Below, one piece after another: positions 6,560 through 33,830 of a stretch of DNA of 64,000 nucleotides. The DNA lies in assembly GCF_018390695.1 (NCBI RefSeq), contig NZ_JAHBGF010000046.1, forward strand, positions 186,001 through 250,000, read 5' to 3'. The notes below the pieces were generated by a model, which was given only the letters and a program-made list of their open reading frames with translations, was not told where the DNA came from and searched no databases. The translations under genes were made by a program, and so were the position numbers. Positions within the stretch are counted from its first letter, which is position 1; every line of letters begins with the position of its first letter. The DNA comes from Ancylobacter sonchi. GTDB lineage: Bacteria > Pseudomonadota > Alphaproteobacteria > Rhizobiales > Xanthobacteraceae.

Positions 6560-6867
6560 CGCGCTTCGGTCCCGGACATGCGCCGGACCACCAAAGCCGC
6601 TGGTTGCGGCCGGTCGTGTCCGAATGCGCCCCTCGCTTGCAATCCCGGGTCATGATGCCCGCAGGCGGGGGCGGAAGCTATCGGTTTCTCGACGCTTCCG
6701 CCGTCGTCGAGCTGTAGCCGGGCGGTATTAAGCTGCCGGCTGACATTGCGGCACCGTCAGGCGAGGACTTTGTTGACGGGGGACGACTTCAATTTAGAGT
6801 GGCAGTAAATATGGCGTCGGCGGTGGAATACGTTGCTGTCCGGCAGGCAGGCGCGGGAGGGCGGGGT
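6560..6867. promoter_or_regulatory. Divergent intergenic region between exporter operon and RTX genes
   Basis: About 308 bases between the start of the ABC exporter and the first RTX gene, and therefore the shared promoter area. A possible RTX promoter is TTGACG at 6773-6778 and TAGAGT at 6795-6800 with a 16-base spacer; the match is only moderate. The stretch 6790-6812 is locally AT-rich. A strong ribosome site GGGAGG at 6855-6860 decides the ATG at 6868 as the start of the RTX gene. No dyad operator was recognised. Confidence 0.45.
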
Positions 6868-8871
6868 ATGGCGGGTGCGGGTACGACGACGGTAGCGGCG
6901 ACGGGTGATGATTATCTCGATGGCCTGATCGACGGCGTCAAATGGGCGGGGCCGACGACCTTCAGCTTGGGTGTCTCCGTCTATCAGCGAGCCTCCATTG
7001 GGGCGACGTTTCTTGGCAACTTTATCGATTGGGCTGGTGACGGGGACATTTATTGGTCGCTGAAGCTGTATGGAGGCGTAACGTCTCTCATCAATCTCGA
7101 CCTGACGCGCGAAGCGCCGACCTCCTACGACAACTGGGGGGATCCGAGATACTCCAATAACGGAGACATCCGGACCAGCAACGGCAGCCTAGGCGAAGTA
7201 GTGTATAGCGCCGACTCTCCCGCGGCAGGAACGGGAGCGGACATTGTATTCAACAGTGATCTCAACAATACCGCCCAAGATCTGCGCCATCCCGGCCTCG
7301 GCAATTACGCGTTCCTCATCGACTTGCAGGCGATCGGTCACGCGCTCGGACTGAAGTCGGCCAGCGAGGCCGGCGGGGTCGCCGATGTCGCGGTGCCGGC
7401 GGACAAGGATTCGCTCGAATACACGGTGATGAGCGAGCGCTCCTATGTCGGCGGGCCGAAGGGGGACGGTGCCTACACGACCGGCGAGTGGGACAATCCG
7501 CAGACCTTCATGGCGCTCGACATTCAGGCGCTGCAAAAGCTTTACGGTGCCGATTATACCACCAATGCCACCAACACGACCTACACGTGGGACCCTTCCA
7601 CCGGCGCGATGTCGGTGAACAAGGTAAAGCAGGGAGTTCCCGGTGAGTATCTTGGGATAGATAAAAACGGATATATCAACCCGCTCTTCGCGACCAACGC
7701 GAACAAGATCTTCCTGACCATCTGGGACGGCGGCGGCAACGACACCTACGACTTCTCGAACTACACCGACAACATGACGATCGACCTGTCGCCGGGCGGC
7801 GCGAGCCTGTTCTCGCAGGCGCAGCGTGCCTCGCTCGGCGACGGCGTCTATGCGCAGGGCAACGTCTACAATTCCTATCTGTACAACGACAATCCGCGCT
7901 CGCTGATCGAGAACGCCATCGGTGGCAGCGGCAACGACACGCTGCTCGGCAACATCACCAACAACGTGCTGAACGGTAATGCCGGCGCCGACACCATGGT
8001 CGGCCTCGCCGGCAATGACAGCTACGTCGTCGACAATCTCGGCGATGTCGTCGTCGAGGCGACGGGCGAGGGGACGGATCTCGTCTATGTCCGGGTAAGC
8101 AGCTATGTGCTGCCGGCAAATGTCGAGAACGCCAAGGCCGAGGAAGGCTTCGGCAACATCGATGTCTGGGGCAATGGGCTTGCCAATACCATGTCGGGCA
8201 ATGCGGCCAACAACGTGCTGCACGGCGGGGCGGGCGCCGATACGCTGTACGGCCTCGCCGGCAACGACCACCTCGACGGCGGTGCCGGGCCGGACGCGAT
8301 GCTCGGCGGGCTCGGCAACGACACCTACATCGTCGACAGCTATTCCGACGTGGTCTACGAGGCACCGGGCGAGGGTGTGTCCGACACGCTGTGGACCTCG
8401 GTGAACCGCGGCCTCGACGCCGACTTCGAGAACATCGTGCTGTTCGGCACGGCGACAGACGCCGGCGGCAACGACAAGAAGAACATCGTTGCCGGCAACG
8501 AACTGAACAACAACCTCTATGGCGGCGGCAATGTCGACAGCCTCTACGGCCATGACGGCAATGACCGGCTGTTCGGCGAGGACGGCAACGACTACATGAC
8601 CGGCGGCAAGGGTACCGACGCCTATTATGGCGGGGCGGGCTATGACTACGCGATCCTGGAGAAGGGCGGCGGGGTCGACTATTTCGTCGACTGGAACGTG
8701 ACGCGCGACCGCGTGGTGTTCGACAGCGCCATCTTCTCCTCGATCGGCGCGGCGATGAACGCGGCGTTCCAGAACGGCACCGACGTGGTGATCTGGGACG
8801 GGCATGACGGCATCGTGCTGCAGAACGCCAAGCTTGCCGACCTCACCACGAGCAACTTCCTGTTCACCTGA
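6868..8871 (+). CDS. RTX protein with degenerate serralysin (M10) fold, copy 1
   Basis: About 667 residues. The start matches serralysins (GDDYLDGLIDGVKW, like the family's xIDGLLSGxKW), and the middle has the M10 C-terminal block LDIQALQKLYGADY and IWDGGGNDTYDFSNY. These are followed by glycine/aspartate RTX repeats (GNAGADTMVGLAGND and similar) that bind calcium outside the cell. The zinc motif HExxHxxGxxH should fall at residues 154-164, but reads QAIGHALGLKS: only His158 remains, while the first His, the catalytic Glu and the third His are lost. The Met-turn EYTVMSERSY is kept. So the fold is probably intact but protease activity should be absent. There is no Sec signal, as expected for a type I secretion cargo. 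GTG starts at 6799 or ATG at 6811 are possible but lack a good ribosome site. Confidence 0.85.
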   Translation: MAGAGTTTVAATGDDYLDGLIDGVKWAGPTTFSLGVSVYQRASIGATFLGNFIDWAGDGDIYWSLKLYGGVTSLINLDLTREAPTSYDNWGDPRYSNNGDIRTSNGSLGEVVYSADSPAAGTGADIVFNSDLNNTAQDLRHPGLGNYAFLIDLQAIGHALGLKSASEAGGVADVAVPADKDSLEYTVMSERSYVGGPKGDGAYTTGEWDNPQTFMALDIQALQKLYGADYTTNATNTTYTWDPSTGAMSVNKVKQGVPGEYLGIDKNGYINPLFATNANKIFLTIWDGGGNDTYDFSNYTDNMTIDLSPGGASLFSQAQRASLGDGVYAQGNVYNSYLYNDNPRSLIENAIGGSGNDTLLGNITNNVLNGNAGADTMVGLAGNDSYVVDNLGDVVVEATGEGTDLVYVRVSSYVLPANVENAKAEEGFGNIDVWGNGLANTMSGNAANNVLHGGAGADTLYGLAGNDHLDGGAGPDAMLGGLGNDTYIVDSYSDVVYEAPGEGVSDTLWTSVNRGLDADFENIVLFGTATDAGGNDKKNIVAGNELNNNLYGGGNVDSLYGHDGNDRLFGEDGNDYMTGGKGTDAYYGGAGYDYAILEKGGGVDYFVDWNVTRDRVVFDSAIFSSIGAAMNAAFQNGTDVVIWDGHDGIVLQNAKLADLTTSNFLFT

Positions 8872-9026
8872 GGCACAGAGGGCTGTGCTGCGCGGACGGT
8901 GCCCGTTCGCCGGCGTGCCGGTCGTCGCTTGAGTAGGTAACCTTGCAGTGGCGCGCGACCGGCAGACAGCAGCAACGACTTGACGAGAGCGCCCCCTTCA
9001 AGCTCCGGTTCACCGAGGACGACGAT

Positions 9027-11579
9027 ATGGCCCAGCCTTGGGATCTATTGCATTCCTGGTCTTCGGACAGGATCGAGAGCCTCAATCGGATCATCGCGAC
9101 GGCCGACGGCCAGATGCTCGACGGTACGCCTGCCGGCGACTGGATGCGGTCCGACGAATATGACGACGTGACGCTCAATGGCAGTGACGGCGACGACGCC
9201 ATCACCGCCGATGGCGGCAACAGAGGCGAGTTCAATGCCGGCGCCGGAAACGACTATCTGAGCGCCGGCCGGGTCGGTTCCGATTTCGAGGACTATCCGC
9301 AGAATACTGGCGGCGTCTTCAACGGAGGCGACGGCGACGACCTGTTTGACGGCAACGAAGGCTCGAATGTCACCTTCAACGGCGGTGACGGAGGTGATGT
9401 TTTCACGACCTCCTTGGCAACAGACAGCACGTTCAACGGAGATGCCGGCGACGATTTCTTTTTCCTCGATGGACTGGAGTCCGGCGACTCGACGAATACC
9501 TACAATGGCGGGACCGGAATCGATACCGCCATGTTAGAAGATTTGTTCGATACCTATGACTTCAAGCGAATCGGGCAGACGCTGACCATAATAAAAGAAT
9601 ACAGCACGGCTACGGTCACAAACATCGAGTATTTTAGATTCCAAGGTCCGGGTCCGGGAGAATACACGGAGCTCACATTGGATCAGCTTGCCATGGATCG
9701 TGTCGCCACCATCGACGCGACGGGCGATGACTATGTCGATGGCCTGTTGCAGGGCAGCAAGTGGATTTCTCCTGTGACATATACTCTTCCGAGAGTGTGG
9801 TATTCGGGCTTCGATCTAACAAAAGGCATGCCGGCAGCCTTGATTAGAATATATAGTCAAGTTGAAAATATCATGCAGCTCAATATAAATGAAAAATGGG
9901 AATACCGAGACGATGATGAGGGGGAGCACTATCCCGCAAGAGACGCCGATATCCACATCTACTTCCTAGAAGGGGGGCATTCCGCCCCGGCGGTGGTCCA
10001 GGGCCCGGATGAAGGGGGAAACGCCGACATCTATCCCAACGACCCGCTCTTTCGGCAGCGTGCCGTTGCCGGCAACGAAACCTATCTCGTGGCTCTCCAG
10101 ATCGTGGCGCAGTCGCTCGGCCTCAAATTCGCCGGCGAGACCGGCAGGGTCGCCGATGTGGCGGTGCCGGCGGACAAGGATTCGCTGGAATATACGGTGC
10201 TGAGCCAGCGTTCCTATCCCGGCGGCCCGGCCGGCGACTACACCGTAGCCGCCAACAACTTTCCGCAGACCCTCATGACGCTCGATGTCCAGGCGCTGCA
10301 GACGCTTTATGGCGCGGACTACAGCTACAACCGCTCGGACAACGTCTATCGCTGGAATGCGACGACGGGATGGATGTCCATTGATGGCGCCTTGCAGAAC
10401 GCTCCTGCCGGGAACACGATCTTTCTGACCATCTGGGACGGCGGCGGCAACGATACCTACGACTTCTCGAACTACACGGACGCGATGTCGATCGACCTGT
10501 CGCCGGGTGGCGCCAGCCTGTTCTCGCAGGCGCTGCGCGCCTCGCTCGGCGATGGCGTCATGGCGCGGGGCAATGTCTACAACGCCTATCTCTACAACGA
10601 CAATCCGGCCTCGCTGATCGAGAACGCCATCGGCGGCAGCGGCAACGACACGCTGCGCGGCAATGTCGCCGCCAATGCGCTGAACGGCAATGCCGGCGCC
10701 GACACCATGTCCGGCCTCGCCGGCGATGACAGCTATGTGGTCGACAATCTCGGCGATGTCGTCGTCGAGGCGGCGGGCGAGGGCACGGATCTCGTCTATG
10801 TGCGGGTCAGCGGCTATGTGCTGCCCGCCAATGTGGAGAACGCCAGGGCCGAGAATGGCCGCGGCGACATCGAAATCCGGGGCAACGAACTGGGCAACGT
10901 GCTGGCCGGAAATCTCGACGGCAACGCGCTCTACGGCAATGCCGGGGCCGACACGCTTTATGGCAGTGTCGGCAATGACCATCTCGACGGCGGCACCGGG
11001 CCGGACGCCATGGTCGGCGGCTCCGGCGACGACACCTACATCGTCGACAACTATTCCGACGTGGTCTACGAAAAGCCGAACCAGGGTACCGATACGTTGT
11101 GGACCTCGGTGAGCCGCGGCCTCGACAACGACTTCGAGAACATCGTGCTGTTCGGCGCCGCCACCGATGCCGGCGGCAATTCCAAGAACAACATCGTTTC
11201 CGGCAATCAGCGCGGCAACAACCTCTATGGCGGCGGCGGGTCGGACAGCCTCTATGGCAAGGCCGGCAGCGACCGGCTGTTCGGCGAGGACGGCAATGAC
11301 TACATGACCGGTGGTACCGGTCGGGACGCCTATTATGGCGGGGCAGGCTACGACTACGCCATCATCGAGAAGGGCGGCGGGGTCGACTATTTCGTCGACT
11401 GGAAGGTGTCGGAGGACCGGGTGGCGTTCGACAGCGACCTCTTCCCGTCGATCGGCGCGGTGCTGACGGCGGCGTTCCAGAACGGCACCGACGTGGTGAT
11501 CTGGGACGGCCATGACGGCATCGTGCTGCAGAACGCCCAACTGACGCAGCTGACGACCAGCAATTTCCTGTTCGTGTAG
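9027..11579 (+). CDS. RTX protein with degenerate serralysin fold and extra N-terminal repeats, copy 2
   Basis: About 850 residues. It differs from its neighbours by roughly 225 additional N-terminal residues containing RTX-like glycine/aspartate blocks (NGSDGDD, GGDGDDLFDGNEG). From residue 228 it follows the common plan: ATGDDYVDGLLQGSKW, then the M10 region, then RTX repeats. The zinc site at 358-368 reads QIVAQSLGLKF, so all three His ligands and the Glu are gone, and the Met-turn Met is Leu (EYTVLSQRSY). The ATG at 9027 behind GAGG is preferred over a TTG at 8943. Bases 9770-9910 are clearly more AT-rich than the surroundings. The C-terminal 130 residues are nearly identical to copy 3. 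Confidence 0.82.
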   Translation: MAQPWDLLHSWSSDRIESLNRIIATADGQMLDGTPAGDWMRSDEYDDVTLNGSDGDDAITADGGNRGEFNAGAGNDYLSAGRVGSDFEDYPQNTGGVFNGGDGDDLFDGNEGSNVTFNGGDGGDVFTTSLATDSTFNGDAGDDFFFLDGLESGDSTNTYNGGTGIDTAMLEDLFDTYDFKRIGQTLTIIKEYSTATVTNIEYFRFQGPGPGEYTELTLDQLAMDRVATIDATGDDYVDGLLQGSKWISPVTYTLPRVWYSGFDLTKGMPAALIRIYSQVENIMQLNINEKWEYRDDDEGEHYPARDADIHIYFLEGGHSAPAVVQGPDEGGNADIYPNDPLFRQRAVAGNETYLVALQIVAQSLGLKFAGETGRVADVAVPADKDSLEYTVLSQRSYPGGPAGDYTVAANNFPQTLMTLDVQALQTLYGADYSYNRSDNVYRWNATTGWMSIDGALQNAPAGNTIFLTIWDGGGNDTYDFSNYTDAMSIDLSPGGASLFSQALRASLGDGVMARGNVYNAYLYNDNPASLIENAIGGSGNDTLRGNVAANALNGNAGADTMSGLAGDDSYVVDNLGDVVVEAAGEGTDLVYVRVSGYVLPANVENARAENGRGDIEIRGNELGNVLAGNLDGNALYGNAGADTLYGSVGNDHLDGGTGPDAMVGGSGDDTYIVDNYSDVVYEKPNQGTDTLWTSVSRGLDNDFENIVLFGAATDAGGNSKNNIVSGNQRGNNLYGGGGSDSLYGKAGSDRLFGEDGNDYMTGGTGRDAYYGGAGYDYAIIEKGGGVDYFVDWKVSEDRVAFDSDLFPSIGAVLTAAFQNGTDVVIWDGHDGIVLQNAQLTQLTTSNFLFV

Positions 11580-11745
11580 CTAGCTGACGGGAAGGAACGG
11601 GCGACGGCGGGCTGCAGGCTGGCGCGTCGAGCAGGGATGGTTCGACGAGTGCGACACGGCTCCAGGTGAGGCCGGCACCGCACCATCATCAGGATGATGT
11701 GGCTTCCCCAGCGTGGGGGCGCGATAGGGCAAGAAGGGGGGCGTC

Positions 11746-13623
11746 ATGGCAAGCGTGGCGAAGGTCGGTGCGGCTGAGAGTGCGTACATCAATGGACTTA
11801 TTGAAGGATACAAATGGGTTGGGAATGTAATATATGCATTCCCGAGCTCAGGGTCGGATTATTACTACCCATCGTCCAGCGAGCCGTCCGGGTTTCGCCC
11901 GGGAGCGGTTGTAACGCACAGCGACGTTGCGTTCATTTTTGCTGGCGAAGTATCTAATTTTACCACGTTGAATATAGTAAGAGAATCTAGCTCTTGGGGC
12001 GACATCCGGATCGGAAAGTCGTTCTATGCCGCCACGGCGCATGCCTATGCCCCGCAGGAAGCCTATCGGGGCGGTGACATCTGGCTGCCTCCGACAAGCA
12101 CCGCGCCCTTGATGGGCGATGCCGGCTATATGGGGTTCCATGCCCTTCTGGGCCGTGCGCTCGGCTTGAAGGCGAGCGGAGATCTCGGCGGTGTCGGCAA
12201 CGTCGCGGTGCCGGCCGACAGGGATTCGATCGAATACACGGTGATGAGCCAGCGCGCCTATCCCGGCGCGCCGGCCGGCTCGCTGTCATCGGTCGAGGCG
12301 AACGGCTTCGCGCAGACCTTCATGGCACTCGACATATTGGCGCTGCAGACGCTCTACGGTGCCGACTACAGCTACAATAGGGGCAACTCGGTCTATACGT
12401 GGGATCCGGCCACCGGCGCCCGCTACGTCGATGGCGCGGAGAGGGCGTCGCCGGTCAACCGGATCTTCCATACCATCTGGGACGGTGGCGGCATCGATAC
12501 CTACGACCTGTCGAACTACACGACGGCGGTCTCGGTAGACCTCGCGCCGGGTGCCTCCAGCCTGCTGTCGCAGGCGCAGCGCGCCTATCTCGGCGACAAT
12601 GTCTATGCGCGCGGCAACGTCTACAATGCGTATCTGTTCAACGACAATCCGGCCTCGCTGATCGAGAATGCCGTCGGCGGCTCGGCCAACGACACGCTGC
12701 GCGGCAATGTCGGCAACAATTTTCTGAATGGGGGCAAGGGCCTCGACACGATGATCGGCCTCACCGGCAATGACGGCTATGTCATCGACAATCTCGGCGA
12801 CGTGGTCGTCGAGGCGGAGAATGCCGGCACCGACACGATCTATCTGCGGCTGAACGGTTATGCTCTGCCGACCAATGTCGAGAACATCAAGATCGACGAG
12901 GGCTACGCCAATATCGAAGCGTGGGGCAACGGCGCCGCCAACCTGATAGCCGGCAACATGCTGGAGAACACGCTCCACGGCGGCGGCGGCGTCGACACGC
13001 TCTACGGCATGGAGGGCAATGACCGTCTCGATGGCGGCACCGGAGCCGACATCATGATCGGCGGCGTCGGTGACGATACCTATGTCGTCGACACCCTCTC
13101 CGACGTGCTGTTCGAAGGGCGCGAGCAGGGCGTCGATACGGTGTGGACCTCGGTCAATCGCGGCCTCGACAAGGAGTTCGAGAACATCGTGCTCTTCGGC
13201 ACCGCCACCGATGCCGGGGGAAATGACGACGACAACATCGTGTCCGGCAATGCGCGCGGCAACAACCTCTATGGCGGCGGCGGCTCGGACAGCCTCTACG
13301 GCCAGGCCGGCAGCGACCGGCTGTTCGGCGAGGACGGCAACGACTACATGACCGGCGGCACCGGCCGGGACGCCTATTATGGCGGGGCGGGTTACGACTA
13401 CGCCATCATCGAGAAGGGCGGCGGGGTCGACTATTTCGTCGACTGGAAGGTGTCGGAGGACCGGGTGGCGTTCGACAGCGACATCTTTTCCTCGATCGGC
13501 GCGGTGCTGACGGCGGCGTTCCAGAGCGGCACCGACGTGGTGATCTGGGACGGCCATGACGGCATCGTCCTGCAGAACGCCAAGATCGCTGACTTCACGA
13601 CCAGCAATTTCCTGTTCGTGTAG
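11746..13623 (+). CDS. RTX protein with degenerate serralysin fold, copy 3
   Basis: A 625-residue member of the tandem family, starting at an ATG behind a strong AAGGGGGG site. N-terminus ESAYINGLIEGYKWVGNVIYAFP matches the serralysin start; LDILALQTLYGADY and IWDGGGIDTYDLSNY mark the M10 C-terminal region and RTX repeats follow. At the zinc site, residues 133-143 read ALLGRALGLKA: Arg stands where the second His should be, and no ligand is left. The Met-turn EYTVMSQRAY is kept. The variable region at bases 11810-11990 is AT-rich. The gene ends the RTX array; 176 bases separate it from the nucleotide-sugar genes. Confidence 0.84.
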   Translation: MASVAKVGAAESAYINGLIEGYKWVGNVIYAFPSSGSDYYYPSSSEPSGFRPGAVVTHSDVAFIFAGEVSNFTTLNIVRESSSWGDIRIGKSFYAATAHAYAPQEAYRGGDIWLPPTSTAPLMGDAGYMGFHALLGRALGLKASGDLGGVGNVAVPADRDSIEYTVMSQRAYPGAPAGSLSSVEANGFAQTFMALDILALQTLYGADYSYNRGNSVYTWDPATGARYVDGAERASPVNRIFHTIWDGGGIDTYDLSNYTTAVSVDLAPGASSLLSQAQRAYLGDNVYARGNVYNAYLFNDNPASLIENAVGGSANDTLRGNVGNNFLNGGKGLDTMIGLTGNDGYVIDNLGDVVVEAENAGTDTIYLRLNGYALPTNVENIKIDEGYANIEAWGNGAANLIAGNMLENTLHGGGGVDTLYGMEGNDRLDGGTGADIMIGGVGDDTYVVDTLSDVLFEGREQGVDTVWTSVNRGLDKEFENIVLFGTATDAGGNDDDNIVSGNARGNNLYGGGGSDSLYGQAGSDRLFGEDGNDYMTGGTGRDAYYGGAGYDYAIIEKGGGVDYFVDWKVSEDRVAFDSDIFSSIGAVLTAAFQSGTDVVIWDGHDGIVLQNAKIADFTTSNFLFV

Positions 13624-24281: not shown

Positions 24282-25508
24282 TTATTCCGCGGCTTCGGCG
24301 CGGGCGACGAAGTCGAGCCCGAGCTTCGTCCACACATCGACCATCGCGGTGACGAGCTGCTCGACGAGGGCGTCGTCGTGCAGCGGGCCGGGGGTGATGC
24401 GCAGCCGCTCGGTGCCGCGCGGCACGGTCGGGTAGTTGATCGGCTGGATGTAGATGCCGTGCTCGGCGAGCAGCATGTCGCTCGCCGCCTTGCACAATTC
24501 GGCATTGCCGACCATCACCGGCACGATGTGGGTATCGGTGTCGAGCTGCGGCAGGCCGGCGGCCTCGAAGGCATTCTTCACCTTGGCCACCTGCTCCTGC
24601 TGGCGGGCGCGCTCGGCGCTGGACGCCTTGAGGTGGCGCACCGAGGCGGCAGCCGCGGCGGCGACCGCCGGCGGCAGCGCGGTGGTGAAGATGAAGCCCG
24701 GCGCATAGGAGCGCACCGCGTCGATCACCGCGCGCTTGCCGGTGATGTAGCCGCCGACCACGCCGAACGCCTTGCCGAGCGTGCCCTCGATGACGTCGAC
24801 CCGGTGCATCACCCCGTCGCGCTCGGCGACGCCGGCGCCGCGCGGGCCGTACATGCCGACCGCATGCACCTCGTCGAGATAGGTCATGGCGCCGTATTTC
24901 TCGGCGAGGTCACAGATGGCCGCGATGGGGGCGACATCGCCATCCATCGAATAGATGCTCTCGAACACGACGAGCTTGGGCCGTTCGCCGGCGGCGATCA
25001 GCAGCTCTTCCAGATGCGCGAGGTCGTTGTGGCGGAACACCGCCTTGTCGCGCCCGGCATGCCGCACGCCCTCGATCATCGAGTTGTGGTTGAGGGCGTC
25101 GGAGAGGATCAGACAATCCGGGATCAGCCGGGCGATCGTCGAGATGCCGGTCTCGTTGGAGATGTAGCCGGAGGTGAAGACGAGGCCGGCCTGCTTGCCA
25201 TGCAGGTCGGCGAGCTCGCGCTCCAACTCGACGATGGCGTGGCTGTTACCGGAAATGTTGCGGGTGCCGCCGGCGCCGGCGCCGACCGTGCGGGCGGAGG
25301 CGCACATCGCCTCGATGACGCTCGCGTGGCAACCCATGCCGAGATAGTCGTTGGAACACCAGATGACGATGTCGCGGGCACCATTCGGCGAATGCCAAGT
25401 CGCGCGGGGGAAGCGGGCGACGTCGCGCTCGATCTCGGCGAAGGTGCGATAGCGCCGCTCGCTCTTCAGCGTGTCGACGGCGGCCTCGAAAATCCCGGTG
25501 TAATCCAT
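24282..25508 (-). CDS. hemA: 5-aminolevulinate synthase
   Basis: 408 residues, the alphaproteobacterial (Shemin pathway) enzyme joining glycine and succinyl-CoA to 5-aminolevulinate, CoA and CO2. Seen: [43 protein letters not shown] and the PLP lysine Lys246 in [16 protein letters not shown] is the usual N-terminus. It ends 30 bases from the converging AbrB-type gene. With hemN beside it and the Fix regulators upstream, this is a heme-supply segment that fits microaerobic growth. Confidence 0.96.
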
Positions 25509-25593
25509 CAGTGCATCCACTCTGCTTCGCCGGGCGGTGGCGGCCGGGGATTCCGGCCGCCCCCTTCCCATGCGGGCGTCGAGGGCACCATGA

Positions 25594-25705: not shown

Positions 25706-26218
25706 TCACGTCTCGGTCAGCTTGCGCACGTCCGCCAGCGGCAGCGGGCGCAGGCCCTTGCCGTCGAAATAGACGAAGCGCAGCTGCTGGCGGCGCGACA
25801 CCATGGCTTTCGGCAACGGATCGTAGCGGAAGCTGCCGCCGCCCAGATGCGGCATCACCGCCCCGACATCGGTGGCGGCGTTGCTCTCGACACGCAACAG
25901 GCTGACGCGGGCGCCGTCCTCGGTGATGGCGTCGAACGGCACGCGGGCGAGGCGCAGGAAGCTGGTCGGGTCGGAAGCGGCCGCGAAGCCCTCGACGAAG
26001 GCCTGCTCGACGAGGTCGAGATCCGGCTCCTCGTGATGGTGCTCCTCCGGCGGCGGCGCATCGGGCAGGTGCGGCGTCTGCCACTGGGCGACGTGCGAGG
26101 GGCCGTGGCCGTGATTGTGGCCGGAGGCGTGGGAGTGGGAATGGCTGTGAGCGTGCCCGTGGGAATGGCCGCCGGCGCCGTGGTCGTGATGATGGTCGTG
26201 ATCGTGGCCGCGATGCAT
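25706..26218 (-). CDS. Very His-rich protein downstream of guanidine hydrolase gene (putative metal store or chaperone)
   Basis: 170 residues. The first 42 contain 18 His in HDHDHHHDHG and HSHGHAHSHSHSH runs, with another HHH cluster near residue 60, a composition that binds nickel, cobalt or zinc. Residues about 65-170 form a small globular domain (LVEQAFVEGFAAASDPTSFLRLARVPF, LLRVESNAATD, LRFVYFDGKG) that I do not recognise. There is no signal peptide, so it acts in the cytoplasm. It follows the guanidine hydrolase gene in the same direction after 298 bases of hairpin-rich repeat. Known Ni-dependent guanidine hydrolase uses HypA/HypB-like helpers (GhaA, GhaB), absent here. This protein may do that job; this is inference. 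Confidence 0.75.
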   Translation of the reverse strand: MHRGHDHDHHHDHGAGGHSHGHAHSHSHSHASGHNHGHGPSHVAQWQTPHLPDAPPPEEHHHEEPDLDLVEQAFVEGFAAASDPTSFLRLARVPFDAITEDGARVSLLRVESNAATDVGAVMPHLGGGSFRYDPLPKAMVSRRQQLRFVYFDGKGLRPLPLADVRKLTET

Positions 26219-26240: not shown

Positions 26241-26470
26241 TCTCCCCGCCCGAACCCGGCCGTTGCCGCGTTCGGTTCTGGCGAGGCCTAAGCCGGAAAC
26301 ATCCGGCTTAGGCGGAGAGGTGGCCCGCGCAGCGGGTCGGTGCGGTGCGGCGCGTTTGCGGAAGGTCGAGGACCCCTCACCCCACCCCTCTCCGCCGACT
26401 TCGGATGCATCCGAAGTCGGCCACTCTGAGTGCGAAATTCGGCAGCAGCCGAGTTCCGTGTGGGGAGAAG
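26241..26470. repeat. Intergenic hairpin repeat, block A
   Basis: The 298 bases between the guanidine hydrolase and His-rich genes hold a row of hairpins. One is a 12-bp perfect stem at 26286-26313 (arm GCCTAAGCCGGA, loop AACA). Another is a perfect 26-base palindrome at 26395-26420 (arm CCGACTTCGGAT). Weaker ones have cores GGC-CGTT-GCC (about 26251-26275) and GGC-AGCA-GCC (about 26437-26453). CCCTCTCC and GGGGAGAAGG blocks flank them. Related hairpins recur near 37.7 kb and 52.1-52.3 kb. No gene is visible here. Confidence 0.8.
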
Positions 26471-26516: not shown

Positions 26517-27722
26517 TCAGAAGCTCACCGGCTTGTCGATGATGTGCTTGTGCGAGCCGAGCTTGCCATGCGCCAGCATCGAGCCCAGCGCCTCGACCAC
26601 CACGCGGGTGCCGAACAGCGCGGTGATGTCGGAGGTGTCGTAGGGCGGCGAGACCTCAACCACTTCCAGCCCGCACAGGCCTTCGGCGGCGACGAGGCCG
26701 AGGATCTTCAGCGCCTCGCGCGGCAGGAAGCCGCCCGGCTCCGGCCAGCCGGTGCCCGGCACGAAGCCGCAATCGATGCTGTCGACGTCGAAGGAGATGT
26801 AGACCGCGTCGGCGTCCTTCCAGGCGAGCTCGAGCGCGATCTCGGCGGTCTTCTCCAACCCGATCTTCTCGATGTCGTCGATGGTCAGCACGTTGGTGCC
26901 GCGCTTGCGGGCTTCCTGCACGCCGTAGCGCGGAACCTGCCAGCCGCCGATGCCGAGCTGCACGAGGTTCTTCGGCGAGACGTTCGGCAGGTTGGTCGCC
27001 CAGTACCACGGCGTGGTGTGCATCCGCTCGTCGAGATCCTTCTCCTGGATGTCGATGTGGCGGTCGAAATGGATGATGCCGATACGCTTCGAGGTACATT
27101 CGGCGATGCCGCGCACGCAGGGAAAGCCGATCGAGTGGTCGCCACCCAGCATGATCGGCAGCGCGCCGGAGGAGAAGACGTGGCTGACGCCCTTGGAGAT
27201 CTGGTCGAAGCTCTTCTCCAGATTGGCGGGGATGGTGAACACGTCGCCGACGTCGCACAGCGTCATCTGCTCGCGCAGGTCGACGCCGAGCTCATAGTTG
27301 TAGGGTGTGTACAGCGCCGAGATGCGGCGGATGCCCTGCGGCCCGAAGCGGGTGCCGGGGCGGTAAGTCGTTCCCGAGTCGAACGGAATGCCCAGCACGG
27401 CGGCATCGTATTTGCCGACATCGCGGACGTTCTCGACGTAAGGGGCCTTCATGAAGGTGTTGATGCCGGCGAAATGCGGCAGCTCGCCGCGCGCGAAGGT
27501 CGGGATCGACTTGTCGTTGATCGAATCGGCGCCGGGCAGGCCCATGTCGAGGGCCCATTTCTGCTCCTTGCGCCAGCCGTCCTCGGAGAGCTTCTCCTCG
27601 GATTCCAGCGCCTTCCAGCCCTGCATCCCCTTGATCTCGAAATTGGGATGGTGGCGGCGGCGGCGGGCCGGTGCCGGGGCAAGGCCGGCGAAACGGGTCG
27701 AACGGGTGGGATGGGAACGCAT
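26517..27722 (-). CDS. gdmH: Arginase-superfamily guanidine hydrolase (GdmH type, Ni-dependent)
   Basis: 401 residues, predicted to hydrolyse guanidine to urea and ammonia. All binuclear metal ligands of the arginase/agmatinase fold are present: His196 in GGDHS, Asp220, His222 and Asp224 in HFDRHID, Asp312 and Asp314 in SFDVDSID. Two traits separate it from agmatinase: a long N-terminal region of about 100 residues, and Trp326 in GTGWPEPGG where agmatinases have Thr. I believe this corresponds to the guanidine-binding Trp of cyanobacterial GdmH. An AAGGAG site 8 bases before the ATG fixes the start. A guanidine-I riboswitch lies in its leader, which is the strongest functional evidence. Agmatinase or guanidinobutyrase remain less likely alternatives. 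Confidence 0.85.
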   Translation of the reverse strand: MRSHPTRSTRFAGLAPAPARRRRHHPNFEIKGMQGWKALESEEKLSEDGWRKEQKWALDMGLPGADSINDKSIPTFARGELPHFAGINTFMKAPYVENVRDVGKYDAAVLGIPFDSGTTYRPGTRFGPQGIRRISALYTPYNYELGVDLREQMTLCDVGDVFTIPANLEKSFDQISKGVSHVFSSGALPIMLGGDHSIGFPCVRGIAECTSKRIGIIHFDRHIDIQEKDLDERMHTTPWYWATNLPNVSPKNLVQLGIGGWQVPRYGVQEARKRGTNVLTIDDIEKIGLEKTAEIALELAWKDADAVYISFDVDSIDCGFVPGTGWPEPGGFLPREALKILGLVAAEGLCGLEVVEVSPPYDTSDITALFGTRVVVEALGSMLAHGKLGSHKHIIDKPVSF

Positions 27723-27724
27723 CA

Positions 27725-27769
27725 GGTTCTCTCCTTGCGATCAGTCCTTGCGACCGGTCCTGGAGAACC
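27725..27769 (-). promoter_or_regulatory. Possible ribosome-site hairpin of the riboswitch leader
   Basis: On the minus strand GGTTCTC (27763-27769) is fully complementary to GAGAACC (27725-27731), which overlaps the end of the AAGGAG ribosome site of gdmH. Pairing would partly hide the site. A second alternative pair is GGGAGG at the aptamer end (27815-27820) with CCCTCC at 27784-27789. Together they could form an expression platform that switches translation or termination. Confidence 0.5.
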
Positions 27770-27814
27770 CTTCGGGATGAGCCGGAGGGTCACGCCGCGA
27801 ACCGCTCGCGCGAG

Positions 27815-27930
27815 CCTCCCGGGCTTTTATCCCGCCGTGGACCCGGCGAATGTGGTGGAACGAGGTTCCCCGCCGGGCTGTCCCTCTCGGCCCAGACGCA
27901 TCGCGAACGATGCCGGAACCCTAGGGACAC
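27815..27930 (-). promoter_or_regulatory. Guanidine-I (ykkC) riboswitch aptamer
   Basis: On the minus strand, in the leader of gdmH, the conserved ykkC blocks appear in correct order: CTAGGGTTCCG (27914-27924), GGGCCGAGAGG (27883-27893) and GGGATAAAAGCCCGGGAG (within 27815-27835). GGTTCC of the first block can pair with GGAACC about 45 bases further on, as in the long first helix. The gene controlled is a guanidine-hydrolase type enzyme, so the guanidine-binding subtype 1 is far more likely than the ppGpp or PRPP subtypes of the same RNA family. The aptamer ends about 92 bases before the gdmH start. Confidence 0.93.
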
Positions 27931-28054
27931 TGAAACGATATCCGGGGTCGCGGCGGATCGGAAGCCCTGATTTGCCGAACCGGCCGGAAGCGGCGCGTGT
28001 TTTCGCGGTAAGCTGGATCGGTATGTCGTTTGGGTTGGAAACGGAGTTCCGCGC

Positions 28055-28693
28055 ATGCTCAGGCTCGACCACCTCACCGTCATCGCGCCGACTTTGAGCG
28101 AGGGGGTTGCGCATGTCCGGGACTGCCTCGGCCTCGACGTGCCGTTCGGGACTCGTCACCACTACATGGGAACCCACAATCACCGGCTTCAGCTCGGCAA
28201 CGCGATCTATCTGGAGATCGTCGCGCTCGATCCGGCGGGGACAGATCCCGGCCGGGCACGCTGGTTCGGTCTCGACAATCAGGAACAGGTCCGGTCGGAC
28301 TGGAACGAGGGCCGTCGCCTGAGAGGGTGGGTGGCAAACACCGATGTCATCGATCCCGTTGTGGCGGCATATGGCACGATGTTCGGCGACAAGGTTTCGC
28401 TTCCTGCGGAAAGCCCGACCTTCGATTTCACCATCCCGTCCGATGGCTCGCTTCCCCTTGGCGGCGCGCTTCCCTCCATCATCGACCACAGGGGCGATAC
28501 GGCCTACATCGCCTCGATCCCGGATCTGGAGGCGCGCCTGACATCCTTCACGCTCGACCACCCGGATCCCGCCGCCATCGCGACGCTCCACCGCGAACTC
28601 GCCATCGAGCCGAGGCTGGAGATCGTCCGCGGCCGCGACATTCGCTATCGGGCGCTGATCCAGACGCCGGGCGGATTGAAGGAACTGACCTGA
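28055..28693 (+). CDS. VOC superfamily (glyoxalase-like) protein
   Basis: 212 residues with the vicinal-oxygen-chelate plan. MLRLDHLTVIAPTLSEGVAHVRDCLGLDVPFG gives the first beta-alpha-beta-beta-beta unit with a metal-type His, and HNHRLQLGNAIYLEIVALDP follows. A second unit begins near residue 90. It resembles the glyoxalase-like domain 3 group, whose members have unknown substrates. The ATG follows an ACGGAG site. It diverges from the guanidine riboswitch leader, with about 124 bases between its start and the aptamer. No link to guanidine can be shown. Confidence 0.78.
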   Translation: MLRLDHLTVIAPTLSEGVAHVRDCLGLDVPFGTRHHYMGTHNHRLQLGNAIYLEIVALDPAGTDPGRARWFGLDNQEQVRSDWNEGRRLRGWVANTDVIDPVVAAYGTMFGDKVSLPAESPTFDFTIPSDGSLPLGGALPSIIDHRGDTAYIASIPDLEARLTSFTLDHPDPAAIATLHRELAIEPRLEIVRGRDIRYRALIQTPGGLKELT

Positions 28694-28784: not shown

Positions 28785-29399
28785 TCAGATGACGCCGGAC
28801 AGCAGGCCGAGGCCGGCTACCGCCACCACGGCGCCGAGCGCCTGGGTGAGGCGCGGCGCGCGGGCTTCGCCGAGCTTGCCGACGGCGAGGCCGAGGCCGA
28901 CGCCGACAAAATGCAGCGCCGCCGTGGCGAGCATGAAGCCGGCGGCATAGGCGAGGCCGGAGGCGTCGGCCGGCATTTCGGTGCCGTGGGCGTGGCCGTG
29001 GAACACGGCGAAGAAGCCGACCAGCGCCATGGCGACGCCGAGCGGCGCGTTCTTCCAGCCCATGGCGACCACGAGGCCGAGCGCCACGATGGAGCCGAGG
29101 ATGCCGAACTCGACGAAGGGCAGGCCGATGCCGGCCATGCCGAGCGCGCCGCCGACCGCCATCAGCGCCACGAAGGTCGCCGGCACCGCCCAGATGGCGC
29201 GGCCGCCGAGCTGGGCGGCGAAGATGCCGACCGCCACCATGGCCAGCACGTGGTCGAGGCCGCCGATCGGGTGGGCGAAGCCGTGCACGAGGCCGGCGGC
29301 GCCTTCATGGCCGGGATGGGCGAAGGCGAGGGCGGGAGACAGCGCGAAGACGGCGGTAAGCGCGGCGCGGCGCAGCTGGGACGAAACGGCGTTCGACAT
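28785..29399 (-). CDS. hupE: HupE/UreJ-family nickel permease
   Basis: 204 residues: a signal peptide ending near AFAHPGHE, then about six membrane segments. The family motif HPIGGLDH is at residues 43-50 and a second His-rich motif FHGHAHGTEMP near residue 133; both are thought to carry the metal. HupE/UreJ proteins move Ni2+ (sometimes Co2+) across the inner membrane. No hydrogenase or urease genes are present in the window. A NikR operator lies 75-102 bases before its start and nikR is the next gene upstream, so repression by excess nickel is expected. Confidence 0.9.
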   Translation of the reverse strand: MSNAVSSQLRRAALTAVFALSPALAFAHPGHEGAAGLVHGFAHPIGGLDHVLAMVAVGIFAAQLGGRAIWAVPATFVALMAVGGALGMAGIGLPFVEFGILGSIVALGLVVAMGWKNAPLGVAMALVGFFAVFHGHAHGTEMPADASGLAYAAGFMLATAALHFVGVGLGLAVGKLGEARAPRLTQALGAVVAVAGLGLLSGVI

Positions 29400-29550: not shown

Positions 29551-30036
29551 TCACCGGGAGTGAACATGGTCGTGCGGGTGCCCGTGACCATGCTCATGCC
29601 CGTGCCCCTGCGCGGACGCTTCCTCGCCGGCCGGTACCAGATGCAAATTGCCGTAGCGCACGCCGCGCTGGGTGACGACGGTGTCGGCCAGCTGCTTCAC
29701 CTCATCCGCCGGCCCGCGCAGCACCGAGACCTCGAGGCAGGTGCCGTGGTCGAGATGTACGTGCAGCGAGGCGACGGTGAGATCGTGATGCCCGTGCTGC
29801 ACCTGGGTGAGGCGGCGCGCCAGCTCGCGCTTCTCGTGATCATAGACATAGCTCAGCGTGGCGATGCAGGGCTGCCTGTTCGCGTCCTCGTCGGCCGCCG
29901 GCGCCTCCTCCATGCCGAGCGCGGTGCGCAGCGCATCGCGGATCGCCTCGGAGCGGTTCTCATAACCGCGTCGCGCGGCATGGGCGTCGAGGGCGGCGAG
30001 CAGCGCGTCGTCGATGGTCACGGTCACGCGCTGCAT
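29551..30036 (-). CDS. nikR: Nickel-responsive regulator NikR, with His-rich tail
   Basis: 161 residues. N-terminal ribbon-helix-helix (MQRVTVTIDDALLAALDAHAARRGYENRSEAIRDALR) plus a C-terminal ACT-like nickel domain. The square-planar nickel ligands are visible: His92, His94 and Cys100 in LHVHLDHGTC, with the fourth His from the HGHH segment around residue 81. The tail after residue 140 (HGHEHGHGHPHDHVH) is an additional His-rich extension not needed for the core fold and could scavenge metal. It controls the adjacent hupE through the operator in between. The upp gene lies 21 bases upstream of it, reading the same strand. Confidence 0.94.
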   Translation of the reverse strand: MQRVTVTIDDALLAALDAHAARRGYENRSEAIRDALRTALGMEEAPAADEDANRQPCIATLSYVYDHEKRELARRLTQVQHGHHDLTVASLHVHLDHGTCLEVSVLRGPADEVKQLADTVVTQRGVRYGNLHLVPAGEEASAQGHGHEHGHGHPHDHVHSR

Positions 30037-30057: not shown

Positions 30058-30720
30058 TCACTTGGTGCCGAAGATGCGGTCTCCGGCGTCGCCGATACCC
30101 GGCACGATATAGCCGTGGTCGTTGAGATGGCTGTCAACCGCCGCCGTGTAGACCGGCACGTCGGGATGCGCCTCGTGGAACACCTTCAGCCCTTCCGGCG
30201 CGGCGATGAGGCAGACGAACTTGATCGACTGGCAGCCGGCGGCCTTCACCTGGTCGACCGCCGCCGCCGCCGAATTGCCGGTGGCCAGCATCGGATCGAG
30301 CACGATGGCGGTGCGCTCGGAAATGTCGCGCGGCAGCTTGAGATAATATTCCACCGCCTGCAGCGACACCGGGTCGCGGTAGAGGCCGACATGGCCGACG
30401 CGGGCGGCGGGCAGGATTTCCAGCATGCCTTCGAGGATGCCGCCGCCGGCGCGCAGCACGGAGACGAGGCAGAGCTTCTTGCCGGACAGGATCGGCGCCT
30501 GCATCGTCGTCAGCGGCGTCTCGATCTCGGTCATCTCCAGCGGCATGTCGCGCGTCACCTCATAGGCGAGCAGCATGCTGATCTCGCGCAAGAGCAGCCG
30601 GAACTCGTTGGCCGGCGTGCGCGAGCGGCGCATCAGCGTCAGCTTGTGCTGGATCAGCGGATGATCGACCACGACGGTGGAGGGCGGGGCGGTGACGGGC
30701 GCGGTGTCGGTCGTGGTCAT
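30058..30720 (-). CDS. upp: Uracil phosphoribosyltransferase
   Basis: 220 residues, forming UMP and pyrophosphate from uracil and PRPP. The PRPP loop is [17 protein letters not shown] and the uracil-binding C-terminus is [17 protein letters not shown]. The ATG at 30720 is chosen; an upstream start would add 15 residues running into the promoter region. It diverges from urc1. In yeasts the uracil phosphoribosyltransferase Urc6 supplies UMP to the URC route, so here upp likely serves catabolism as well as salvage. Confidence 0.95.
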
Positions 30721-30810
30721 GGGACGCTCGCTGAAGGCGGGGTGGGAGGCGGGACAGAGTCCCACAAGCTAGCGGAAACGCGAAGGGCGATACATTCCGC
30801 CGATACAAAT

Positions 30811-30830
30811 TTCGGACCAGTCCGTCCGAA
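30811..30830. promoter_or_regulatory. Dyad operator candidate between upp and urc1
   Basis: TTCGGACCAGTCCGTCCGAA contains two overlapping dyads: TTCGGAC/GTCCGAA around six bases, and CGGAC-CA-GTCCG. AAATT and AATTTT flank it. It lies in the 218-base divergent region of the uracil genes and has the form of a TetR- or GntR-type operator. The matching regulator is not in the window. Confidence 0.5.
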
Positions 30831-30938
30831 AATTTTCGCCTCCCGCCACCTACCCCCTTGCAGAACGTCACATAACGCGCTCACATTCAGTGCTTCCCGA
30901 GGACCGGCCGCCAAGGCCGGGCGAGAAGCGAGCCCATC

Positions 30939-32207
30939 ATGTCCGTCACTACCGGTTCCGGCGGTCGTTCCCGCAATCACATCGTCCTCACCTCCCATGG
31001 CGCGCCGACCGGCGTGTCCGCGAGCGCGCCGGTGCTCGACTGGGGCGCGCCGACGGCGCTCCAGCGCGGCCCGGTGGTCGCCACCCTCACCGATTCCAAG
31101 CGACGCAACGCCATCGGCACGCATGGCGGCGGCTACTCGGTGTATCGCGCGCTCGCCATCGCCGCCGGGGCACTGCCGGCCGACTTCAAGGCCGACCTCA
31201 CCAATACCGCGCCGTCCGACCTGATCGGACCGCACCCGCAATGGGCGGACCCGACCAAGATCGTCTCCATCGATCCCTATGGCCACATGGTCGGCGAAGC
31301 CTTCGCCGACCTCATCGCCGAGGGCGTCGACGTGCGCCCGACCATCGCCATCACCCGCGCCCATATCGACATGCCGGAGATCCGCGACGCCATCCGCGCC
31401 GGACGGCTGAAGATCGACGGCGACATCATCGGCCCCAAGGGCGACGTGCGCGTCACCAAGGCGGCGATCGATCCCGTCTGGTACCTGCCCGGCATCGCCC
31501 AGCGCTTCGGCATGGGCGAGGGCCAGCTGCGCCGGGCGCTGTTCGAATATACCGGCGGCATGTTCCCCGAACTGGTCACACGTGGCGACCTGAAGGTGTT
31601 CCTGCCGCCGATCGGCGGCATGACGCTCTACATGTTCGGCGATCCCTCGAAGATCGGCGACGGGGTGACCCCGATTGCCTGCCGCGTGCATGACGAGTGC
31701 AACGGCTCCGACGTGTTCTCCTCCGACATCTGCACCTGCCGGCCCTATCTCGCCCATGGCATCGAATTGTGCGTGGAGATGGCGCAGAAGGGCGGCACCG
31801 GCCTCGTGGTCTACAACCGCAAGGAAGGCCGGGCGCTCGGCGAGGTGACCAAGTTCCTCGTCTACAACGCACGCAAGCGGCAGGAGGGCGGCGACCTGCC
31901 GGAGACCTATTTCAAGCGCACCGAATGCGTCGCCGGTGTGCAGGACATGCGCTTCCAGGAACTGATGCCGGACGTGTTCCACTGGCTGGGCATCACCCAG
32001 ATCGACCGCTTCGCCTCGATGAGCGACATGAAGTTCAACGCGCTCGACCGCGCCGGTATCAAGGTGATCGAGCGGGTGGCGATCCCCGACGAGCTGATCC
32101 CGCAGGATGCCCGCGTCGAGATGGAGGCCAAGGTCTCGGCCGGCTATTACGGTGCCGGCTTCCAGAGCCAGTATGACGAGACGCAGGGGCGCGGGCTGAA
32201 GGAATAG
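30939..32207 (+). CDS. urc1: Urc1, GTP cyclohydrolase II-like protein of uracil catabolism
   Basis: 422 residues. The C-terminal half is RibA-like: CRVHDECNGSDVFSSDICTC keeps the zinc pattern C-x10-C-x-C of GTP cyclohydrolase II, and KEGRALGE matches the active-site loop. About 200 extra N-terminal residues (THGGGYSVYRALAIAAG and more) set it apart from riboflavin-pathway RibA and match the URC1 group, which is required for pyrimidine-ring breakdown through UMP. The reaction order is not fully settled in the literature. Its neighbours urc4 and upp complete the set, which makes this assignment much safer than ribA. Confidence 0.85.
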   Translation: MSVTTGSGGRSRNHIVLTSHGAPTGVSASAPVLDWGAPTALQRGPVVATLTDSKRRNAIGTHGGGYSVYRALAIAAGALPADFKADLTNTAPSDLIGPHPQWADPTKIVSIDPYGHMVGEAFADLIAEGVDVRPTIAITRAHIDMPEIRDAIRAGRLKIDGDIIGPKGDVRVTKAAIDPVWYLPGIAQRFGMGEGQLRRALFEYTGGMFPELVTRGDLKVFLPPIGGMTLYMFGDPSKIGDGVTPIACRVHDECNGSDVFSSDICTCRPYLAHGIELCVEMAQKGGTGLVVYNRKEGRALGEVTKFLVYNARKRQEGGDLPETYFKRTECVAGVQDMRFQELMPDVFHWLGITQIDRFASMSDMKFNALDRAGIKVIERVAIPDELIPQDARVEMEAKVSAGYYGAGFQSQYDETQGRGLKE

Positions 32208-32272
32208 GCCCGATCTCATCGTCCGCCTTGCGCTCGCGTGGGGCGGGCGATTTCACGAGGATAGAGGCGGAC

Positions 32273-32575
32273 ATGGCCGGCGACGACGAAGACTATGTGT
32301 ATGACGAGGCGACCGGCGAATGGCGCCCATCCTCGGAGATGAAGGCGCAAGCCGCTGCGGCCAGCGCGGCGCGCGACGCCTCCGGAACCGTGCTGGCGGA
32401 CGGGGATTCCGTGGTTCTCGTCAAGGACCTGAAGGTGAAGGGCGCCGGCCAGACGCTGAAGCAGGGCACGGTGATCCGCTCGATCCGCCTGACCGACAAT
32501 CCGGAGGAGATCGACTGCCGCCACGACAGCATCAAGGGCCTGGTGCTGCGCACGGAATTTGTGCGCAAGCGCTGA
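32273..32575 (+). CDS. PhnA-domain protein lacking the zinc ribbon
   Basis: About 100 residues. The C-terminal part DSVVLVKDLKVKGAGQTLKQGTVIRSIRLTDNPEEIDCRHDSIKGLVLRTEFVRK is the PhnA/YjdM domain. The N-terminal CxxC zinc ribbon of full-length PhnA is replaced by an acidic, Cys-free stretch (GDDEDYVYDEATGEW). It lies between urc1 and urc4 and ends 28 bases before urc4, so it is probably cotranscribed. PhnA itself has no firm role despite its name; a link to uracil breakdown is suggested only by position. Confidence 0.8.
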   Translation: MAGDDEDYVYDEATGEWRPSSEMKAQAAAASAARDASGTVLADGDSVVLVKDLKVKGAGQTLKQGTVIRSIRLTDNPEEIDCRHDSIKGLVLRTEFVRKR

Positions 32576-32603
32576 CGCCGGCCACTCCCGAGAAGGACGA
32601 CGC

Positions 32604-33830
32604 ATGATCCCGCCCGAACTCGCCGCCTTGCGTTCCCCCCACGCCGTGCGCGCCCGTAGTCACATGGTGCTGGACCACGTGCTGGCGGGGGCCTCGCCGT
32701 ATTTCACTGTCGATGAAACCCGGCTCGGCGCGGTGGCGGATTATGTGGCGGAGGTGGCGCGCCGCGCCTATCCGACGCTCGACATCCCCTATCACAGCCG
32801 CTGGCGACACTTCGACGCCGGCGGGGTGGCGCGCTGGGATGCGCTCGCCGGGACGCTCACCAGCGTCGACACGCCGGAGCGCGCGCGGATCATGGTCGAT
32901 CTCGCGGTGGTGAGCGTGCTGCTCGACGCTGGTGCCGGCGACGCCTGGCGCTACCATGAGGACGCGACCGGGCTCACCGTGACCCGTTCGGAAGGGCTGG
33001 CGGTGGCCAGCCTGCACATGTTCCAGGCCGGCGCGTTCTCTTCCGACCCGGCGGTGCCGTTGCGCGTCGACGCGCCGGCGCTGATCGCGCTCGACGCCGC
33101 GACGCTGGCCCGGCATTTCCAGGTGACCGCCGACAACCCACTGGTGGGCGTGCCGGGGCGGGTGACGCTGCTCAACCGGCTCGGTGAGGCGATGGCGGCG
33201 CGTACCGACCTGTTCGGCGACGGGGCGACGCGGCCGGGCGGGCTGATCGACGCGCTGCTGCCGCAGGCCAAGGTCGGTCGGCTGCCGGCGGCGCGCATCC
33301 TGGAGGCGCTGCTCGACGGGCTGTCGGCGATCTGGCCGGCGGGGCTGGTGGTGGACGGCGTGGTGCTGGGCGATGTCGGCCGGCACGGCGCGATCACCGT
33401 GCCGGACCGCTCGGCCGGGTTGGTGCCGTTCCACAAGCTCTCGCAGTGGCTGACCTATTCGCTGCTCGAGCCGTTCGAGGCCGCCGGCGTCGCGGTGGTG
33501 GATCTCGACGAACTCACCGCGCTGCCGGAATACCGCAATGGCGGCCTGTTGGTGGATCTGGAGCTGATCGTGCCGCGTCAGCCCATCGACCCCGCGCAGA
33601 AGCACCCGGTGGGCTCGGAGATGATCGTCGAGTGGCGGGCGCTTACCGTGGCGCTGATGGACCGGCTCGCGGGGGAGGTGCGCGAGCGGCTCGGGCTCGA
33701 CGCCGACGCGTTCCCGCTCGCCAAGCTGCTGCAGGGCGGCACGTGGGCGGCCGGGCGGCAGATCGCCGCGCAGAAGCGCGCAGGCGGACCGCCGCCCATC
33801 GCCATCGACGCCGACGGCACGGTGTTCTGA
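32604..33830 (+). CDS. urc4: Urc4, DUF1688 protein of uracil catabolism
   Basis: About 408 residues, spanning the DUF1688 family over full length (PELAALRSPHAVRARSHMVLDHVLAGASPYFTVDE, HSRWRHFDAGG, VSVLLDAGAGDAWRYHE, EGLAVASLHMFQAGAFS, LVVDGVVLGDVGRHGAITVPD). In yeasts URC4 is essential for growth on uracil and works with URC1; its chemistry is not established. The ATG at 32604 follows AGAAGGA. It ends in a hairpin facing the next, oppositely reading gene. Confidence 0.88.
   Translation: MIPPELAALRSPHAVRARSHMVLDHVLAGASPYFTVDETRLGAVADYVAEVARRAYPTLDIPYHSRWRHFDAGGVARWDALAGTLTSVDTPERARIMVDLAVVSVLLDAGAGDAWRYHEDATGLTVTRSEGLAVASLHMFQAGAFSSDPAVPLRVDAPALIALDAATLARHFQVTADNPLVGVPGRVTLLNRLGEAMAARTDLFGDGATRPGGLIDALLPQAKVGRLPAARILEALLDGLSAIWPAGLVVDGVVLGDVGRHGAITVPDRSAGLVPFHKLSQWLTYSLLEPFEAAGVAVVDLDELTALPEYRNGGLLVDLELIVPRQPIDPAQKHPVGSEMIVEWRALTVALMDRLAGEVRERLGLDADAFPLAKLLQGGTWAAGRQIAAQKRAGGPPPIAIDADGTVF

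Follow-up and report, generated by a model that had tools for sequence, protein, structure and literature searches.

A guanidine riboswitch and guanidinase locus of Ancylobacter sonchi with a histidine-rich companion protein as proposed nickel supplier

The 64,000-nucleotide stretch of Ancylobacter sonchi DNA analysed here (the window) probably carries a guanidine-inducible operon for guanidine catabolism in which a small histidine-rich (His-rich) protein acts as the nickel supplier of the guanidine hydrolase GdmH. In the mechanism that we propose, guanidine would bind a Guanidine-I aptamer and switch on the genes for GdmH and the His-rich protein; GdmH, a putative di-metal ureohydrolase, would convert guanidine into urea and ammonia, and the urea would then be split by a urease encoded elsewhere in the genome. 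The flexible histidine tail of the His-rich protein would collect Ni2+, which the folded core would then pass to apo-GdmH, as the HypA/HypB-type proteins GhaAB do in cyanobacteria. The comparisons reported below establish, at the level of sequence, the aptamer, the guanidinase family and specificity residues of the enzyme, the constant pairing of the two genes in the relatives sampled, the HypA-less character of their loci and the presence of urease. The pairing of this riboswitch with a guanidinase is described in the available text of PMC8390497 and PMC11410670, and the riboswitch and gdmH alone are thus a further example of a known pairing; what goes further is the His-rich companion, the less familiar part of the locus.

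The riboswitch, its leader and the layout of the operon

The Guanidine-I (ykkC) riboswitch aptamer lies on the minus strand at 27814-27935 and matches the Rfam model RF00442 with 94.5 bits (gathering score 63, E 7.4e-16, cmscan), the alignment at 27935-27814 covering the full length of the model (positions 1-107 of 107). It is the sole Rfam match reaching its gathering score in the 64-kb window and the sole Guanidine-I aptamer in the 5.8-Mb genome, and its E-value together with its conservation in relatives rules out a chance match. An earlier note on this DNA had read a ykkC leader here and proposed the Rfam covariance search, which bore it out: the three blocks that it quoted are found on the minus strand in the order claimed. 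The note had placed the element within 26517-27930, which is right for most of the aptamer, but the upper limit stops 5 nt short. By analogy with its relatives, the aptamer would bind guanidine and act in the ON direction.

Between the aptamer and gdmH, a leader of 91 nt (27723-27813, minus strand) contains the expression platform and the ribosome-binding site. No terminator-like site was found on the minus strand in the region 27500-28100. Pairing of the Shine-Dalgarno (SD) sequence with an anti-SD sequence is possible in the window leader, and in most of the 13 leaders with gdmH directly after the aptamer it did not go beyond that of shuffled sequences. SD sequestration was rejected, as 11-862 of 1000 shuffles gave an equal or stronger SD/anti-SD duplex across the 13 leaders, with just 2 of them at or below 22 of 1000. 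The SD was still not freed when the window leader was forced into the aptamer fold.

The same arrangement was sought in related loci, for which we used the best 80 of 566 confirmed candidates, and which are therefore closer relatives. In all 12 related genomes checked with Rfam an aptamer is found near gdmH, directly upstream in 6 and within a larger stretch in 6. With a custom model built from 13 aptamers, 74 of the 80 loci showed an aptamer upstream of gdmH, although the independent count is 67 of 73, since 7 of the 74 records also supplied model sequences. Three of the six aptamer-less loci (L086, L104 and L120) offer less than 2 kb of upstream sequence, L107 yielded no aptamer by the custom model, and L097 and L124 yielded none by either the custom model or Rfam. 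In these last two loci the His-rich gene accompanies gdmH, and the 10 kb upstream yielded neither guanidine-type ABC genes nor an aptamer. Among the 74 aptamers from these best 80 of 566 loci, 10 directly precede gdmH, 58 lie 0.4-3.6 kb upstream and 6 lie 4.0-7.4 kb upstream. A gene for a guanidine-type substrate-binding protein (SBP) is found upstream in 64 and a permease gene in 66 of the 80 (again the best 80 of 566 loci).

No ABC transporter genes were found in the window operon. The direct aptamer-gdmH form is present in 7 of 8 named Ancylobacter loci, and A. gelatini retains the ABC genes, its SBP corresponding to NCBIfam TIGR03427 ('putative urea ABC transporter substrate-binding protein'); the window operon can therefore be regarded as a shortened form. 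The idea that the transporter had moved elsewhere was discarded, since the SBP of the genome closest to the guanidine-type SBP of A. gelatini is just 49% identical to it, and we do not claim it as the importer. By eye, the neighbours of this SBP look like genes for pyrimidine use, and we take them to be RutA/RutF-like.

The order on the minus strand of the window is aptamer, leader, gdmH, a gap of 298 bp, the His-rich gene and a 5-aminolevulinate synthase gene (24282-25571). The gap contains palindromic repeats (26285-26422), two of them perfect with arms of 14 nt and 12 nt, and an imperfect second copy of one is found at 52205-52224, so these palindromes are possibly a mobile intergenic repeat. 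We propose that gdmH and the His-rich gene are co-transcribed in the window genome, which for this locus is an assumption because the genes lie 298 bp apart with palindromes between them.

The guanidinase gene and its relatives

The gdmH gene (26517-27722, minus strand) starts with an ATG preceded by AAGGAG and encodes a protein of 401 amino acids that is probably a nickel-dependent guanidine hydrolase, judging by its identity to characterised guanidinases: 66% to Synechocystis GdmH (PDB 7esr/7oi1) and 61% to the Nitrospira inopinata guanidinase (9fek). In a PDB sequence search these scored 547 and 526 bits, respectively, followed by guanidinobutyrase with 180, and no other solved ureohydrolase exceeded 181 bits. 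The six metal ligands (H196, D220, H222, D224, D312 and D314) are all present, as are the active-site His and Glu (H235 and E356), and W326 sits in the motif GTGWPEPGG. According to the available text of PMC11410670, guanidine specificity in the N. inopinata enzyme is set by T105 and W313, whose counterparts here are T119 and W326; the T119 match was counted from the published metal-ligand numbering.

In a tree of 56 hand-picked rows, GdmH falls inside a clade of 35 rows that includes both characterised guanidinases (support 100/99). Among the 21 rows outside it, whose order among themselves is unsure because several have long branches, are guanidinobutyrase, guanidinopropionase and six other ureohydrolase genes located in five stretches of the window genome itself. 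T119 is kept in 35/35 clade rows, and T stands at this position in 6/21 of the others; W326 is kept in 34/35 clade rows (with T in the Embleya row) and in 0/21 of the others. The D-R-H metal motif has Arg in all 35 clade rows and Ala or Ser in all 21 others. Among the matches listed, the closest gdmH genes of named isolates are those of Ancylobacter species (93-96%).

These results agree with the earlier note, which had read the gene as a guanidine hydrolase with all arginase-fold metal ligands, a Trp in GTGWPEPGG and a likeness to cyanobacterial GdmH, and which had asked for a phylogeny against other ureohydrolases: the ligands, the Trp and the clade placement are as described, guanidinobutyrase falls outside, and the covariance match of the leader points to the same substrate. 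It had also anticipated that routine annotation would call the gene agmatinase, and 4 of 11 plasmid records with gdmH do say 'agmatinase family protein', the remaining 7 being unannotated there. The best NCBIfam model for GdmH is an agmatinase subfamily, under its cut-off; the protein stays below the agmatinase models TIGR01230 (158.5 bits against a cut-off of 174.3) and NF002564 (210.7 against 302). On the strength of its relatives, GdmH would use guanidine as substrate and depend on nickel. For the genes that rhizobia, Ancylobacter, Roseibium and others currently carry under the name agmatinase, the annotation shifts towards guanidine use.

The Synechocystis operon of GdmH (Sll1077) resembles the window in its Guanidine-I riboswitch and in its guanidinase, whose ligands and specificity residues are identical to those of the window GdmH. 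Its ABC transporter genes are also present in most of the alphaproteobacterial loci sampled, although not in the window operon, and where Synechocystis has the HypA/HypB-type pair GhaA/GhaB the window has one His-rich protein, whose family is unmatched. The N. inopinata operon likewise has a Guanidine-I riboswitch, a closely similar guanidinase and no HypA/HypB-type chaperones nearby, but, according to the available text of PMC11410670, it differs from the window in having an APC permease and in that a search for a dedicated nickel-loading protein found none. Operons for metformin and dimethylguanidine hydrolases (MefH, DmgH, MetCaCb) also encode Ni-dependent ureohydrolases and, as far as the available text of PMC11399263 goes, may be adjoined by a HupE-type nickel transporter, as in the window; unlike the window, they combine a heteromeric enzyme with HypA/HypB chaperones. 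Metformin hydrolase chains in the PDB score 128-130 bits against GdmH, compared with 526-547 for the guanidinases.

Two tandem ureohydrolase genes of genome G000 (L142:6328-8243; contig C30, 144827-146742) are each 36% identical to GdmH, and one of them groups with guanidinopropionase in the tree. The pair may resemble the paired arginase-family proteins of metformin and dimethylguanidine hydrolases; the only HypA of G000 is on a different contig.

The His-rich companion and its pairing with gdmH

The gene downstream of gdmH (25706-26218, minus strand) encodes the proposed nickel-delivery protein, of 170 amino acids, with an N-terminal His-rich tail and a core of ~107 amino acids. The earlier note, right about the riboswitch and the enzyme, had missed it. 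We aligned 68 such proteins, from 67 loci and the window, leaving out 13 of 80 for wrong start choice, Ns or near-duplication. They contain a median of 20 His residues (range 6-33), which make up a median of 30% of the N-terminal part against 1.8% of the core. Of the 68, 61 contain a G-H-N motif, and the invariant residues of the core include F, D, R and P but no His or Cys. In one locus (L109) the His tail is C-terminal instead of N-terminal, and two homologues (L120 and L108) are low in His.

AlphaFold2 modelled the tail with low confidence, so that it is probably disordered, and the core with confidence (core alone, pLDDT 89.8, pTM 0.75). Searches of the core family against Pfam, NCBIfam and PDB sequences gave no convincing match (best E 0.0025), and the weak matches of the protein include metal transporters as well as tagged proteins that carry stretches rich in His. 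With Foldseek the core found no solved relative, nickel chaperones included (best E 0.18; none of the 50 listed exceeded a TM of 0.36), and the best PDB match of the full-length model had E 0.31 and a low TM-score. The nickel chaperones UreE, HypA and HypB carry His-rich stretches. Like the His-rich protein, they join a flexible His-rich stretch to a conserved folded domain, but they share with its core neither a homologous domain nor a fold match, and only weak matches to the tail were seen. We did not find the family described in the open literature; Funck 2022 and Nelson 2017 were outside the search and may mention it.

The association of this protein with gdmH is constant in the loci sampled. 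In 80/80 (the best 80 of 566 loci) the His-rich core is encoded on the same strand 38-516 bp after gdmH, and in many of these relatives the His-rich gene starts 2-25 bp from the gdmH stop. On two Paracoccaceae plasmids it overlaps the end of gdmH and is annotated 'hypothetical protein'. Across 398 Pseudomonadota genomes, gdmH (called at E at most 1e-100) is present in 7 and the His-rich protein in the same 7; of 385 genomes of the class, 13 have the His-rich core, including all 11 that have gdmH. The two samples overlap in at least G000 and G422, a limited number of first-look candidates was scored per genome, and some positive genomes (the window's, and at least G022 and G315) also fed the search alignment. 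The distances between GdmH proteins and those between cores are correlated (Spearman 0.79, with 0/1000 permutations as high). Co-occurrence and matching divergence could also follow from linkage and shared ancestry.

The two genomes with a core and no gdmH have broken settings. In G864 (L171:8260-9032) a core that is near-complete and carries its His tail at the C-terminus lies directly behind a piece of a guanidine-type SBP gene, and gdmH, permease and ATPase were not found in the 10.5-kb stretch; in G646 (L172:7103-7351) a partial core is interrupted by an in-frame stop. Both look like remains of broken or deleted operons, and G864, which keeps a near-complete core and tail, indicates that the His-rich protein can outlast gdmH.

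On the large plasmids of five Sinorhizobium fredii records (e.g. NC_012586.1 389330-391037), four of them unannotated in the collection, gdmH is also found near a His-rich core. No His-rich gene was found at the three actinobacterial gdmH loci (L139-L141). One of these, on a Rubrobacter plasmid (L139:6750-14358), combines a Guanidine-I aptamer, gdmH, a sodium:solute symporter gene and a formamidase gene with an adjoining urease cluster and no His-rich gene.

Nickel handling and the role of the His-rich protein

In published relatives that depend on nickel, the HypA/HypB-type chaperones adjoin the enzyme genes (PMC11399263, PMC11271267, available text), and metformin hydrolase operons carry them as well (PMC11399263). 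Frequent operon partners of riboswitch-controlled 'agmatinases' are hypA, hypB and ABC genes, as stated in the available part of PMC8390497, and GhaAB is stated to be required for GdmH activation in that of PMC11271267. With the window genome's own HypA and HypB as query and positive control, no HypA match and two weak HypB matches (26-28%) were found in the relatives' loci (best 80 of 566), and 16 of 22 genomes with gdmH (completeness 93% or more in each) gave no HypA match. The single HypA of the window genome (by Pfam) is on another contig, where by eye it forms part of an apparent hup/hyp hydrogenase cluster with a His-tailed HypB; hypA plus hypB beside gdmH, as in a GhaAB-type operon, were not found. 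Urease alpha is encoded in 22/22 gdmH genomes, with two genes in the window genome, which indicates that urea is usable and nickel is handled in these cells.

Since the protein carries a His tail and is tied to one nickel enzyme at loci where HypA is missing, it is most simply read as the nickel supplier of that enzyme, and we infer that it is a delivery protein dedicated to the guanidinase. We lean, by a modest degree, towards the further reading that it represents a new family of nickel metallochaperones, with a fold unlike those of HypA, HypB and UreE and with the guanidinase as single client, which replaces HypA/HypB in Alphaproteobacteria. The available text of PMC11271267 and PMC11410670 places two HypA/HypB-type proteins behind the nickel of the guanidinase in cyanobacteria and no evident chaperone in comammox Nitrospira, so the His-rich protein that constantly accompanies gdmH in the sampled alphaproteobacterial operons offers a testable third route. 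A family of 'hypothetical proteins' gains a likely role, and the protein is perhaps a tool for producing fully loaded guanidinase.

A nickel-loading protein is not always needed: as reported in the available text of PMC11410670, recombinant N. inopinata guanidinase is active in a partly metal-loaded state, and comammox genomes yielded no protein dedicated to nickel loading. For metformin hydrolase, one group found no significant effect of co-expressed chaperones on extract activity, although the knockout was unable to grow on metformin (PMC11271267, available text).

The guanidinase reading could be right and the His-rich protein be a cell-wide Ni2+ store or detoxifier with no specific part in metal insertion into GdmH. 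A low-confidence, probably disordered His tail fits storage equally well, the core fold matches no known chaperone and one genome (G864) keeps core and tail without gdmH. A general store, however, should often occur without gdmH, and this was seen in 0 of 398 and 2 of 385 genomes, both times in broken settings; the core is moreover conserved and its divergence tracks that of GdmH. We therefore consider storage unlikely. A regulatory or structural role of the protein alongside the GdmH hexamer, with metal not its main concern, would suit the invariant F, D, R and P residues of a core with no invariant His or Cys, and also the constant pairing with GdmH. It would sit poorly with a His-rich tail that is kept despite sequence drift and that moved to the other end in one lineage, and for the N. 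inopinata homohexamer, which resembles GdmH, the available text of PMC11410670 reports no partner of this kind; we consider this possibility quite unlikely.

Loading of GdmH by urease accessory proteins, with the His-rich gene as a passenger, draws on the presence of urease alpha in 22/22 gdmH genomes, where accessory proteins are to be expected; we rate it as very unlikely, for a passenger is not expected beside one and the same gene in 80/80 loci (best 80 of 566). Finally, the substrate of the enzyme could be another guanidino compound, guanidine being the inducer or a side substrate. For guanidine, the N. inopinata enzyme does have a high Km (13.6 mM, from the available text of PMC11410670). 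The aptamer family nevertheless reports guanidine, the residues that the same source gives as setting guanidine specificity have T119 and W326 as their counterparts, and GdmH is placed in the guanidinase clade, so that a different substrate seems most improbable.

Two further genes related to nickel lie upstream of the aptamer. A HupE/UreJ-type membrane protein, a possible nickel permease (28785-29399, minus strand; PF04955, E 9.9e-57), is encoded outside the riboswitch transcript, and a HupE homologue occurs in 30 of the 80 gdmH loci (best 80 of 566), which makes it an optional neighbour. The nickel-responsive regulator NikR (29551-30036, minus strand; NCBIfam NF002815, 194.6 bits against a cut-off of 83) was rejected as a member of the system, being present in only 2 of these 80 loci and outside the conserved unit.

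Elsewhere in the window, three large consecutive genes with RTX/serralysin-type calcium-binding repeats occupy 6799-13623, their NCBIfam matches being under the cut-offs. Adjoining the locus, at 30058-33830, are upp, a GTP cyclohydrolase II gene (PRK07198 type) and a DUF1688 gene. This set lies near gdmH in ten of ten Ancylobacter-group loci (L050-L058 and L119) and in none of the other loci (best 80 of 566); in yeast, a set of this kind makes up the URC pathway of uracil degradation, which releases urea.
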